In this document: one piece after another, positions 4,926 to 58,966 of the stretch
Numbering within the stretch: position 1 is the first letter of the stretch
Layout of the letters: each line of letters begins with the position of its first letter
NCBI RefSeq assembly: GCF_005490985.1
Contig: NZ_CP027869.1
Span: forward strand, 3,038,001-3,102,000
Length of the DNA stretch: 64,000 nt
Source of the DNA: Curtobacterium sp. SGAir0471
GTDB lineage: Bacteria; Actinomycetota; Actinomycetes; Actinomycetales; Microbacteriaceae
Direction of reading: 5' to 3'
The notes under the pieces: generated by a model
What the model was told of the DNA's origin: nothing
The model's input: the letters and a program-made list of their open reading frames with translations, nothing else
Databases searched by the model: none
Made by a program: the position numbers and the translations under genes

Positions 4926-7174
<2,249 letters not shown>

Positions 7175-8278
7175 TCAGTTCGCGCGGTCTCGGCGCAGGG
7201 CCGTCCGCGTCGGTCGTGCCCGGGCGTCCGCGAACGACGGGCTCCCGGAGGTCGGGCCGCTCGCGAGCTCGAAGTCGAGCAGGCTCTGCTCCGACCGGCG
7301 CCCGGTGACGGCGGCGACCCCGCCGTGCAGCCGGAGCCGCACGTCGCCCGAGACGTGCCGCTGCGTCTGCTCGACGAAGGCGTCGAGCGCGCGGCGGAGC
7401 CCGCTCGCCCACCGACCGCCCTCGACCAGGTCCGCCCACTCGCGGTCCACGCCGTCCTTGACGCGTAGCACCTCGCGTTCGAGGGTGATGCGTTCGAGGT
7501 CCCGGTGTGCCGCCACGAGCGCGGTTGCCCCAGGGGTCTCGGCGAGGCGCCTGGCCTTGCGGCCGTCGAGCAGGTCGACGACGAGGTCGTGGCGACCGAT
7601 GCCGTGGCGGCCGGCGAGGGCGTCGAGCTCGCGCAGGAGGCGCAGGACCGGGAAGCGCTGCCCGTCGAGGGCGACCGGGACACCGTGCTCGAAGGTCACG
7701 GTGACCTCGTCGGGTTCGGGGTCCGGCTGCGCGGCCGGGTCCGCGGTCCGCGCCCAGGCCGCCGCGTCGACCGCAGCCCACGGGTCCTCGGGATCGGGTT
7801 CGGCGACCAGGCGGCCCCAGACGTCGTGCTCGGTACCGCCGACCGGCACGACCCTGGTCGGCACCGGGAGGACCCGGAGGTCGGGGTCGTACCCGGCGAC
7901 CGTCGTCGTGAGGGCCACCTCGTCCGGCGCGGACGTCAGGTGCGCGACCGCGACGGCACCGAGCTGCCGCGCCGTCCGGGCCAGGTGGTCGGCGACGACC
8001 GGCAGACGCAGCGCCGGCACCAGCGGTCGACCGGGACCGCCGGCGTTCGCCTGCACGGCGCCGACGACGTACCGGTCGGCGTACTCGGTCTTCGCGTCGA
8101 CCACCAGGGCGTCCACGGCGCCGGCGACCCGCGCGCGGTCGCGCACCGCGTCGACCTCGCGCGAGCGACCGCCGAGGTCGACCACGAGGGCCAGGACCTC
8201 GTGGTCGACGGCGAAGTGCTCGACGGCCGCCGCCGGGTCCACACCGGCGGAGCAGGCGACGACGATGCGGTCGGTCAC
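7175..8278 (-). CDS. argininosuccinate synthase-like protein, catalytic motifs lost (argG relic or pseudoenzyme)
   Basis: A 367-residue protein that aligns over its whole length with type 1 argininosuccinate synthases and sits at the classical argG position between argF and argH. Its C-terminal half is well conserved (FEHGVPVALDG, AGRHGIGRHD, TGRRSEQSLLDFELA). The active-site motifs are not. The ATP-binding SGGLDTS reads SAGVDPA at residues 10-16, the AHG-TGKGNDQVRFE block reads AHLTSAPDEVALTT, and about 25 residues around the YSxDxN segment are missing. The frame is open, with an AGGAG six bases before the GTG start, so the gene looks expressed. It probably cannot make argininosuccinate. A separate E. 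coli-type argG lies at 55.0-56.4 kb. It could be a regulatory or structural subunit, or a decaying relic. Confidence 0.85.
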   Translation of the reverse strand: MTDRIVVACSAGVDPAAAVEHFAVDHEVLALVVDLGGRSREVDAVRDRARVAGAVDALVVDAKTEYADRYVVGAVQANAGGPGRPLVPALRLPVVADHLARTARQLGAVAVAHLTSAPDEVALTTTVAGYDPDLRVLPVPTRVVPVGGTEHDVWGRLVAEPDPEDPWAAVDAAAWARTADPAAQPDPEPDEVTVTFEHGVPVALDGQRFPVLRLLRELDALAGRHGIGRHDLVVDLLDGRKARRLAETPGATALVAAHRDLERITLEREVLRVKDGVDREWADLVEGGRWASGLRRALDAFVEQTQRHVSGDVRLRLHGGVAAVTGRRSEQSLLDFELASGPTSGSPSFADARARPTRTALRRDRAN

Positions 8279-8298
8279 GGGACTCCTGTCGAGCGGGG

Positions 8299-9324
8299 TC
8301 AGGCGGTCGGGCTGGTCGCTGCGGTCGCGGTGGCCGGAGCGCTGGCGGTGGCCGGAGCGCTGGCGGTGGCCGGAGCGCTGGCGGTGGCCGGTCCGCCCGT
8401 CGCATTCGTGGCCAGGAGCCAGGCGAGCAGGGCCTTCTGCGCGTGCAGGCGGTTCTCTGCCTCGTCCCAGATGATGCTCCGCGGCCCGTCGATGACCTCG
8501 GCGGTCACCTCGAACCCGCGGTCCGCCGGCAGGCAGTGCATGAACACGGCGTCGTCGGCGGCGTGCCCCATCAGCTCGTCGTCGACGCGGTACCCCGCGA
8601 AGGTGTCGAGTCGCGCCTGCTTCTCGTCCTCCTTGCCCATCGACACCCACGTGTCCGTGACCACGACGTCAGCCCCGGCGACGGCGGCGACCGGATCGGT
8701 GACGACCAGGACGGACCCACCGGTCTCGGCGGCACGACGCTCGGCGTCGGCGACGACCCGGGGCTCGGGACTGAACGCAGCCGGCGCGGCGACCCGGACG
8801 TGCATGCCCGCGGTGGCGCCGGCCAGCAGGTACGAGTGCGCCATGTTGCACGCGCCGTCGCCGACGAAGGCGACGGTCTGCCCGGCGAGCGTGCCGCGGT
8901 GCTCACGGATGGTGAGCAGGTCCGCCAGGAGCTGGCACGGGTGGAAGTCGTCCGACAGCGCGTTGACGACCGGCACGCGGGTGCCCGCCGCCATCTCCTC
9001 GAGCCCGGACTGGGCGTAGGTGCGCCAGACGATCGCGGACACCATGCGCTCGAGTACCCGGGCGGTGTCGGACGGGGTCTCCTTGCCGCCGAGCTGGCTG
9101 TTCGCCGTCGTGATCACGAGGGGGCTCCCGCCGAGGTCGGAGATCCCGACGTGGAAGGACACCCGCGTGCGGGTCGACGACTTGTCGAAGATCACCGCGA
9201 CGGTCTGCGGGCCGGCCAGCGGCTTCTCGCCCCAGCGGTCACCCTTCATCCGAGCGGCCAGGTCGAGGATCGCGGACTGTTCGGCCTGGGTCAGGTCGTC
9301 GTCGCGGAGGAAGTGGCGGGTCAT
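8299..9324 (-). CDS. argF: ornithine carbamoyltransferase with an Ala/Thr/Pro-rich repeat tail
   Basis: A 341-residue enzyme that makes citrulline from ornithine and carbamoyl phosphate. The carbamoyl-phosphate motif SSTRTR is near residue 50, the HPCQLLADLLT segment near 125, and the HCLPA motif, with the catalytic Cys, near 260. The normal fold ends around residue 312; the last 29 residues are extra and encoded by an 18-bp tandem repeat. The start codon overlaps the argD stop by four bases (ATGA). The stop lies 20 bases before the argG-like start, so the two are probably cotranscribed. Confidence 0.97.
   Translation of the reverse strand: MTRHFLRDDDLTQAEQSAILDLAARMKGDRWGEKPLAGPQTVAVIFDKSSTRTRVSFHVGISDLGGSPLVITTANSQLGGKETPSDTARVLERMVSAIVWRTYAQSGLEEMAAGTRVPVVNALSDDFHPCQLLADLLTIREHRGTLAGQTVAFVGDGACNMAHSYLLAGATAGMHVRVAAPAAFSPEPRVVADAERRAAETGGSVLVVTDPVAAVAGADVVVTDTWVSMGKEDEKQARLDTFAGYRVDDELMGHAADDAVFMHCLPADRGFEVTAEVIDGPRSIIWDEAENRLHAQKALLAWLLATNATGGPATASAPATASAPATASAPATATAATSPTA
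8332..8394 (-). repeat. 18-bp tandem repeat inside the 3' end of argF
   Basis: Three perfect copies of an 18-bp unit lie at 8332-8349, 8350-8367 and 8368-8385, followed by a partial copy. Because 18 is a multiple of three, the repeat adds in-frame Ala-Thr-Ala-Ser-Ala-Pro units to the C-terminus of ornithine carbamoyltransferase. Copy number probably varies between strains. Confidence 0.9.
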
Positions 9325-54999: not shown

Positions 55000-56625
<1,626 letters not shown>

Positions 56626-58093: not shown

Positions 58094-58588
58094 CTACGCG
58101 GCCACCAGGTACTCGTCCCACTCCGACTGCGGACGCTCGATCCCGCGGACCACCCACGACGCCCCGTGGGGTGCCTTCGGCCGGAACCGCAGCCGCCACC
58201 CCATCTCCTGCGGGGTGCGGTCGCCCTTCGTGTTGTTGCACGCCAGGCAGCACGCGACGAGGTTCTCCCACGAGTCCTGCCCACCGCGCGACCGCGGCTG
58301 CACGTGGTCGATCGTGGTGGCGTGCCGGTCGCAGTAGGCGCAGCGGTTGGCGTCCCGCCGCAGGACCCCGCGGCGCGAGACGGGCACGAGCCTCGCGTGC
58401 GGGATGCGCACGTAGCGGGTGAGGATGATGACGGACGGACGATCGAAGCTCGCGGTCGACCCGATGACCGGGTGGTCGATGTCGGCGGCGATGACGGCGG
58501 CCTTCTGGTTCATGACCAGCACGAGGGCCCGTCGGTCCGAGATCACCGCGAGGGGCTCGTAACCGGCGTTGAGGACGAGAGTGCGCAT
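58094..58588 (-). CDS. HNH endonuclease
   Basis: A 164-residue nuclease-like protein. A beta-rich N-terminus (TLVLNAGYEPLAVI) precedes the HNH site with CAYC, then DHVQPRSRGGQDSWENLVACCLACNNTKGD. The two CxxC pairs bind a structural zinc and the His-Asn-His/Asn set binds the catalytic metal. This form is very common and chromosomal in actinobacteria; its cellular role is unknown. GGAAGGGAA precedes the ATG. Confidence 0.92.
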   Translation of the reverse strand: MRTLVLNAGYEPLAVISDRRALVLVMNQKAAVIAADIDHPVIGSTASFDRPSVIILTRYVRIPHARLVPVSRRGVLRRDANRCAYCDRHATTIDHVQPRSRGGQDSWENLVACCLACNNTKGDRTPQEMGWRLRFRPKAPHGASWVVRGIERPQSEWDEYLVAA

Positions 58589-58871
58589 GGGTTCCCTTCC
58601 GACGGTGCCTGGACGGCTTCCAGGCGCTGCGGGTGCGTCGGGTCGATCGACGTCGACAGGGGACCGCGACCTGCGACCACGCCCTGAACCACGAAGAGCA
58701 CCACCCGGATGGGCAGTGCTCTCGTCATGCAGGTGCGTGATGGTGCACGCAGGGGGCGGTCGACCGTATGTCCACGAGCGCGCGCCGACCCGTGGTGCGG
58801 GTCGTGCGGAACGCTGACATGAGGTCTCCCGTGTTCGGGCCGGATCGGACCGGTGCAACACCAGGCTACGT
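58589..58871. other. gene-free stretch upstream of the HNH gene
   Basis: I see no convincing gene here. It contains an inverted repeat GAGCAC/GTGCTC around 58695-58722. The HNH promoter must lie in this region, but I cannot place it. Confidence 0.4.
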
Positions 58872-58912
58872 CGGAAACCGGCCCGGCACGAGGGTGTGCG
58901 GGCCGGTTTCCG
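58872..58912 (-). terminator. terminator of the NlpC/P60 gene
   Basis: A perfect 14-bp stem CGGAAACCGGCCCG / CGGGCCGGTTTCCG with a 13-nt loop, 55 bases after the NlpC/P60 stop. Confidence 0.88.
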
Positions 58913-58966
58913 GGAGTGTTCACGGGAACGACACACTCGTCGTCACCGCTGCGCGGGCGTGCGGGG

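Follow-up and report, generated by a model that had tools for sequence, protein, structure and literature searches.

Pseudoenzymes are usually viewed as finished products. The trypanosome prozyme, a catalytically dead paralogue of AdoMetDC, performs a non-catalytic job by activating its partner (PMC5201418). Among the relatives of argininosuccinate synthase (ArgG), the closest described systems are type 1 ArgG, exemplified by the protein of Mycolicibacterium thermoresistibile (4XFJ), the E. coli-type ArgG (PRK05370 / NF003779), the NCBIfam family argG_rel (NF038212), which collects non-equivalog relatives of ArgG under a name of their own, and the nitrile synthetase ArtA (9LEH, 9LEI), in which the ArgG fold serves a new reaction (PMC13060819). 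Among the matches listed for ArgG pseudoenzymes, argG paralogues or transfer, and arginine biosynthesis in Microbacteriaceae, there was no paper on a dead argG of Curtobacterium.

Here, we describe such a gene in a window of 64,000 nt of Curtobacterium sp. SGAir0471 (NZ_CP027869.1, positions 3,038,001-3,102,000). The operon-type argG is referred to as T1 and the E. coli-type argG as T2, while the T1 product of this strain is termed pseudo-ArgG. We hold it moderately probable that the product of this T1 gene is a pseudoenzyme descended from type 1 ArgG, that T2 took over, and that T1 has since been kept as a non-catalytic protein. At the level of sequence, we show that T2 accompanies every loss of the ATP loop, that this loss is recurrent, and that the T1 protein is retained and constrained.

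An ArgG relative within the arginine operon

The pseudo-argG gene (7175..8278 of the window, (-) strand) comprises 367 codons plus stop, starts with GTG and gives a stop-free translation of 367 aa. It is preceded by an AGGAG ribosome-binding site (8283..8287, (-)) 4 bases before the start, and GGAG occurs at a similar place in 10/11 genomes of the dead clade introduced below, being absent there in G006. Upstream, at a distance of 20 bases, lies argF, encoding ornithine carbamoyltransferase (8299..9324, (-)), and argH, encoding argininosuccinate lyase (5618..7108, (-); PF00206, PF14698), follows directly downstream. The original prediction of an intact frame with a good ribosome-binding site between argF and argH is thus borne out. 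The C-terminus of argF (window 8299-8400) forms a low-complexity tail with ATASAP repeats, and in the 20 Curtobacterium genomes compared these tails vary in length and repeat, some argF copies being tail-less.

Both ArgG domains of Pfam were recovered over their cut-offs of 27, namely the HUP N-terminal domain (PF00764, 71 bits) and the ArgG C-terminal domain (PF20979, 185 bits), in agreement with the earlier assignment of the frame as an ArgG relative. For each of the five curated equivalog models of argG that were listed, the protein stays under the cut-off: NF001770 (244 bits, cut-off 334), TIGR00032 (211, cut-off 268), NF010392 (208, cut-off 512), NF003385 (121, cut-off 603) and NF003779 (57, cut-off 657). 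The catalytic form of Curtobacterium usually has 398 aa, 31 more than this protein; relative to P0031, 22 residues are missing before the YSxDxN segment and 6 from a loop near the C-terminus. The shortening around YSxDxN had been noted, its size being 22 residues in the comparison with P0031 rather than the roughly 25 first estimated. The C-terminal tail, RTALRRDRAN (residues 358-367; 7178..7207, (-)), forms the end of a predicted helix and is kept despite the shortened loop before it, and the protein as a whole is predicted to retain the parent ArgG fold.

Loss of catalytic motifs and ligand residues

Alignment with catalytic Curtobacterium ArgG turns AYSGGLDTS into ACSAGVDPA, the change from SGGLDTS to SAGVDPA that had been read from the window. 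The former ATP loop SGGLDT is accordingly broken and now reads SAGVDP (residues 10-15; 8234..8251, (-)); SAGVDP is found in 11/11 dead-clade genomes and SAG(V/I)DP in 16/16 proteins (the window's plus 15 database proteins). Moreover, pseudo-ArgG is devoid of the TGKGNDQVRFE aspartate/citrulline block and of YSxDxN. The former, already described as scrambled, is AHLTSAPDEVALT where the catalytic form has AHGCTGKGNDQVRFE (residues 112-124; 7907..7945, (-)), and YSxDxNxWGR has become GGTEHDVWGR (residues 147-156; 7811..7840, (-)), with the 22-residue gap located after residue 137. In addition, the former DRLVGIK is now DLLDGRK (residues 235-241; 7556..7576, (-)), of which D235, L236, D238, G239, R240 and K241 are invariant among dead-type proteins.

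Nineteen positions, which we take from general annotation to be those for ATP, aspartate and citrulline, were mapped by alignment; on this site list, 13-14/19 are changed in each of the 11 dead-clade proteins, and 2-7 in six further proteins with a broken loop. Six residues of the citrulline site were checked: 11/11 dead-clade proteins carry replacements at five of them (one being Ser91, the assignment of which is uncertain) and 9/11 at the sixth. Since most citrulline residues are gone, the suggestion that the protein senses citrulline in the ancestral pocket is disfavoured.

A second ArgG in the same genome

An E. coli-type argG had been anticipated in this genome and is found at 55000..56442 (-), about 47 kb from the operon copy. 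This T2, the presumed working argininosuccinate synthase, reaches 840 bits with NF003779 (cut-off 657) and retains SGGLDTS as well as a second, 12-residue motif. Among the 28 Curtobacterium T2 genes compared, the window's included, 27 are full length and 94-100% identical to that of the window, and the 28th, of G010, is fragmentary. Some flanking sequence is shared with the window locus in 25/28 loci (the window's counted), amounting to only 58-97 bases in five of these, and an epoxide-hydrolase gene beside T2 is common to 16/28. The loci of G051, G062 and G011 have no flank in common with the window locus within the stretch compared. An HNH endonuclease-domain protein (window 58094-58936) adjoins the epoxide-hydrolase gene next to T2. 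Within the genus, T2 is over cut-off in 37/66 genomes and fragmentary in G010 and G022, and parsimony yields one T2 gain and three T2 losses.

Distribution of the dead type in Curtobacterium

T1 is complete and stop-free in 66/66 Curtobacterium genomes, and five motif blocks were read in all of these proteins. Conservative changes aside, the motifs are intact in 27/27 genomes without T2. The 39 genomes with T2 comprise 11 of the dead type (SAGVDP), six with a broken ATP loop (G051, G056, G019, G063 and the pair G031/G032) and 22 in which the loop is kept or nearly so. Among the latter, G061 shows Ser to Cys at the loop end, while G062, G011, G038, G009, G034 and G010 each have one listed ligand position changed. 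Hence, all 17/17 genomes with a broken ATP loop possess T2, which agrees with the original proposal that relief from catalysis is tied to the second enzyme. Four of the 66 genomes (G010, G037, G057 and G065) are less than 90% complete, so the absence of T2 from G037 and G057 is less sure.

In a tree of argF plus argH, whose deep nodes are weak and which holds G035 and G037 without argH, the 11 dead genomes form one clade (support 92) and the six other broken-loop genomes occupy five places. In the T2 gene tree, G027/G028 stand apart from the remaining dead genomes at supports of 13-17. A protein search retrieved, among the best 120 of 368 matches, a clade of P0002-P0016 that is 66-94% identical to pseudo-ArgG and has the same motif losses, all six proteins with a source name being from Curtobacterium; below it, in the same 120, come catalytic-looking Curtobacterium ArgG at about 50% and the intermediates P0017, P0018 and P0036. 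A pattern-based scan of named genomes likewise found the close type at six loci (68-94%), all in Curtobacterium. Matches elsewhere in that scan reach 49% at most and, judged by identity, were rejected as further members of the dead type.

Loss and retention of the operon copy in Microbacteriaceae

Of 160 genomes of the family, 3 of them from Curtobacterium, 92 have T2 and 65 have T1 over cut-off. For the 157 non-Curtobacterium genomes the counts are 89 and 63, with both enzymes over cut-off only in G104 and G179, i.e., in 2/157; T1 and T2 are thus almost mutually exclusive outside Curtobacterium. Both exceptions were rejected as a second dead case: the operon T1 of G104 has intact motifs, and so has the T1 of G179, which belongs to a second, diverged argG-argH pair. 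The latter pair (L128 2640-5251) lies outside the arginine operon and may serve a secondary pathway, its T1 being 49% identical to motif-intact Curtobacterium T1 and its argH 43%. In G094 (C48:6289-7737, L112), the argH match contains one in-frame TGA, possibly a sequencing error.

T1 is not over cut-off beside T2 in 87/89 non-Curtobacterium genomes, whereas it has been lost in 0/39 T2-bearing Curtobacterium. In 16/16 T2-only genomes examined out of these 87, no T1 match was present less than 1.5 kb from argH; the view included argF in 15/16, and this gene lies several hundred bases away in G086, G197 and G096 but nearby in the other 12. Total loss of T1 is therefore ordinary, and its retention in Curtobacterium needs a reason. 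ArgR (PF01316), ordinarily the repressor of arginine genes, was found in 0/66 genomes of the genus and 0/160 of the family, with 9/14 control genomes positive. Since ArgR is absent family-wide, its loss is unlinked to the dead clade and was dismissed as a cause of a regulatory pseudo-ArgG.

Selection on a probably non-catalytic protein

Codon models were fitted by maximum likelihood (ML) with custom code. In the branch-class and halves fits, which cover 39 and 32 of the 66 taxa and, argF excepted, ended at the iteration limit, omega of T1 is 0.018 without T2, 0.041 with T2 and an intact loop, 0.079 with a broken loop and 0.068 in the dead clade. On the stem of the dead clade, omega amounts to 0.40 for argG, 0.13 for argF and 0.18 for argH, the stem branches of argF and argH being very short; inside the clade, argF and argH show 0.026 and 0.017. 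The two halves of dead-clade argG give 0.061 and 0.072, and fixing omega = 1 costs 288 and 457 lnL units, respectively. Thus, the C-terminal half is well kept, as had been noted, but the N-terminal half is equally constrained within the dead clade. For the dead clade alone (10/11 genomes), omega is 0.075, with a 2 delta-lnL of 1333 against omega = 1; when sites are divided into three classes, these have values of 0.0008, 0.057 and 0.28.

Pairwise NG86 estimates are 0.16-0.33 for dead-clade pairs, 0.03-0.14 for five pairs with T2 and an intact loop, 0.12 for G031/G032 and 0 for the four no-T2 pairs where it is defined, all of low dS. ML (F3x4) and NG86 differ two- to four-fold, a discrepancy that probably stems from a GC content of about 93% at third positions. 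The dead protein is under purifying selection, less than the enzyme was: constraint is several-fold weaker, with omega of about 0.07 compared with 0.015-0.018 in catalytic T1. Selection does retain the protein, as originally supposed. Neither frameshifted nor neutrally evolving homologues came to light; a decaying pseudogene is at odds with 0/66 broken frames and the rejection of omega = 1.

The main rival to a pseudoenzyme acting by contacts, unlikely in our view and yet a serious contender, is a slowly decaying relic under weak selection, i.e., a low-level product without a job from which only harmful changes (misfolding, toxic or polar) are purged. Constraint below that on catalytic T1 would suit such a relic, as would partial losses visible at several stages and a graded rise in GC at the first and second codon positions (GC1/GC2), from 0.694/0.418 without T2 through 0.736/0.442 (T2, loop intact) and 0.761/0.471 (broken loop) to 0.842/0.520 (dead), while argF, argH and T2 remain nearly flat over the same genome classes. 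The amino-acid composition of T1 has drifted along with GC pressure, FYMINK residues ranging from 17.8% (G041) down to 4.6% (G000). Furthermore, the start codon, assigned via a pattern at the conserved N-terminus, is ATG in 27/27 no-T2 genomes and GTG in 32/39 with T2; this shift, which the relic would likewise explain, means that T1 expression is probably lower. A relic is less easily reconciled with the intact frame in all 66 genomes, with omega far below 1 in both halves, and with the loss of T1 in 0/39 T2-bearing Curtobacterium where 87/89 T2 genomes outside the genus lack it. Simulated under a simple neutral model, the frame would stay free of stops with a probability of about 0.003 over the G000-G005 distance and of 0.17 over the short G000-G065 distance.

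Improbable, but deserving consideration, is a new enzyme with a pocket rebuilt for another substrate, for which ArtA, an ArgG fold with a new reaction (PMC13060819), provides a model. Residues specific to the group are present: next to 121 positions that are invariant within the dead clade and common to the catalytic form, 50 positions (start codon included) are fixed throughout the dead clade for a residue unseen in the 27 no-T2 copies, some of them radical (G38R, E40R, S91R, I230H, V238D, I240R), and residues 1-20, including the former ATP loop, rank among the most constrained stretches of the dead-clade protein. However, 31 of the 50 replacements increase GC at the first two codon positions, as expected from drift under GC pressure, 15 leave it unchanged and 4 lower it, and the set was therefore dropped as proof of a new function. 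Within the ATP loop, Thr15 is lost in 11/11 dead-clade proteins, the hydroxyl of residue 16 in 8/11 and the substrate Asn in 11/11, and the gene still sits between argF and argH, all of which speaks against a rebuilt enzyme.

An operon spacer, the frame of which would be kept solely for translational coupling from argF to argH, is already largely refuted and very improbable: the argF stop and argG start are 10-20 bases apart in 14/20 Curtobacterium genomes compared and the frame is lost in 0/66, yet amino acids should then not matter while nonsynonymous change is strongly suppressed, and the T2-only genomes examined mostly have argF near argH without T1. Scarcely credible, too, is an argininosuccinate synthase with unusual motifs, for although Ser10, Gly12 and Asp14 of the loop as well as Asp119 persist in 11/11 dead-clade proteins and the fold is predicted to be intact, 13-14/19 ligand positions are changed in each, and the loop is lost only where T2 is present.

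A possible role in the arginine pathway

Returning to the proposed pseudoenzyme, the comparison shows the following history. T2 is present in each genome examined whose operon copy is without its ATP loop, and in one clade the operon copy then shed the majority of its ligand residues and became about 30 residues shorter. Purifying selection has kept both domains and the reading frame, and by prediction the fold. Presumably, argininosuccinate is now supplied by T2 and no longer by the operon protein, the latter probably being expressed at a lower level than the ancestral enzyme. As to its function, we tentatively favour, as the likeliest single role though at less than even odds, a non-catalytic oligomer that folds and assembles like ArgG and works by protein contacts in the arginine pathway; partners may include ArgH, ArgF or T2, for example. 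It is rather doubtful whether the whole sequence of events holds, namely that T1, having lost its ATP loop on six lineages, was kept throughout for contacts in the arginine pathway, and that the dead clade is the end point, a non-catalytic subunit or regulator. Co-evolution of dead T1 with T2 was rejected, as the 27 T2 genes compared (fragmentary G010 left out) offer no residue that all dead-clade genomes share and all others lack; together with an argH omega that is not raised within the dead clade, there is therefore no sign of a co-evolving partner.

Comparison with known systems

At this locus, an essential enzyme has in the course of natural evolution become a protein that seems to lack catalysis. 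One genus contains the whole series, from catalytic-looking copies without T2, through motif-intact copies under weaker constraint beside T2 and single broken loops, to the dead clade, and all stages are in the same operon slot and in frame. Close relatives thus allow one to ask why an essential enzyme persists when another performs its reaction. If the proposed reading is correct, a resident enzyme need not vanish once an enzyme of a second type takes over an essential step. Caution in annotation is also warranted, given that, of the six dead-type proteins whose database entry names a source, two bear the unqualified name argininosuccinate synthase.

Compared with type 1 ArgG such as 4XFJ, pseudo-ArgG has lost the ATP loop, the aspartate/citrulline block and YSxDxN, and is both shortened and under the curated cut-offs. 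The E. coli-type ArgG, of the same superfamily and in the same genome, presumably performs the ancestral reaction and is not the source of pseudo-ArgG, the identity being only about 30% over part of the C-terminal domain. Nor does the protein belong to argG_rel (NF038212), because its partial match of 131 bits is far under the cut-off of 425. ArtA is an active, ATP-dependent enzyme (PMC13060819), whereas the ATP loop of pseudo-ArgG is broken. The prozyme is likewise a dead relative of a pathway enzyme, and its activation of a partner is proven (PMC5201418), the partners of pseudo-ArgG being putative; the two also differ in that the presumed working enzyme beside pseudo-ArgG is of a distant type and not a close duplicate.
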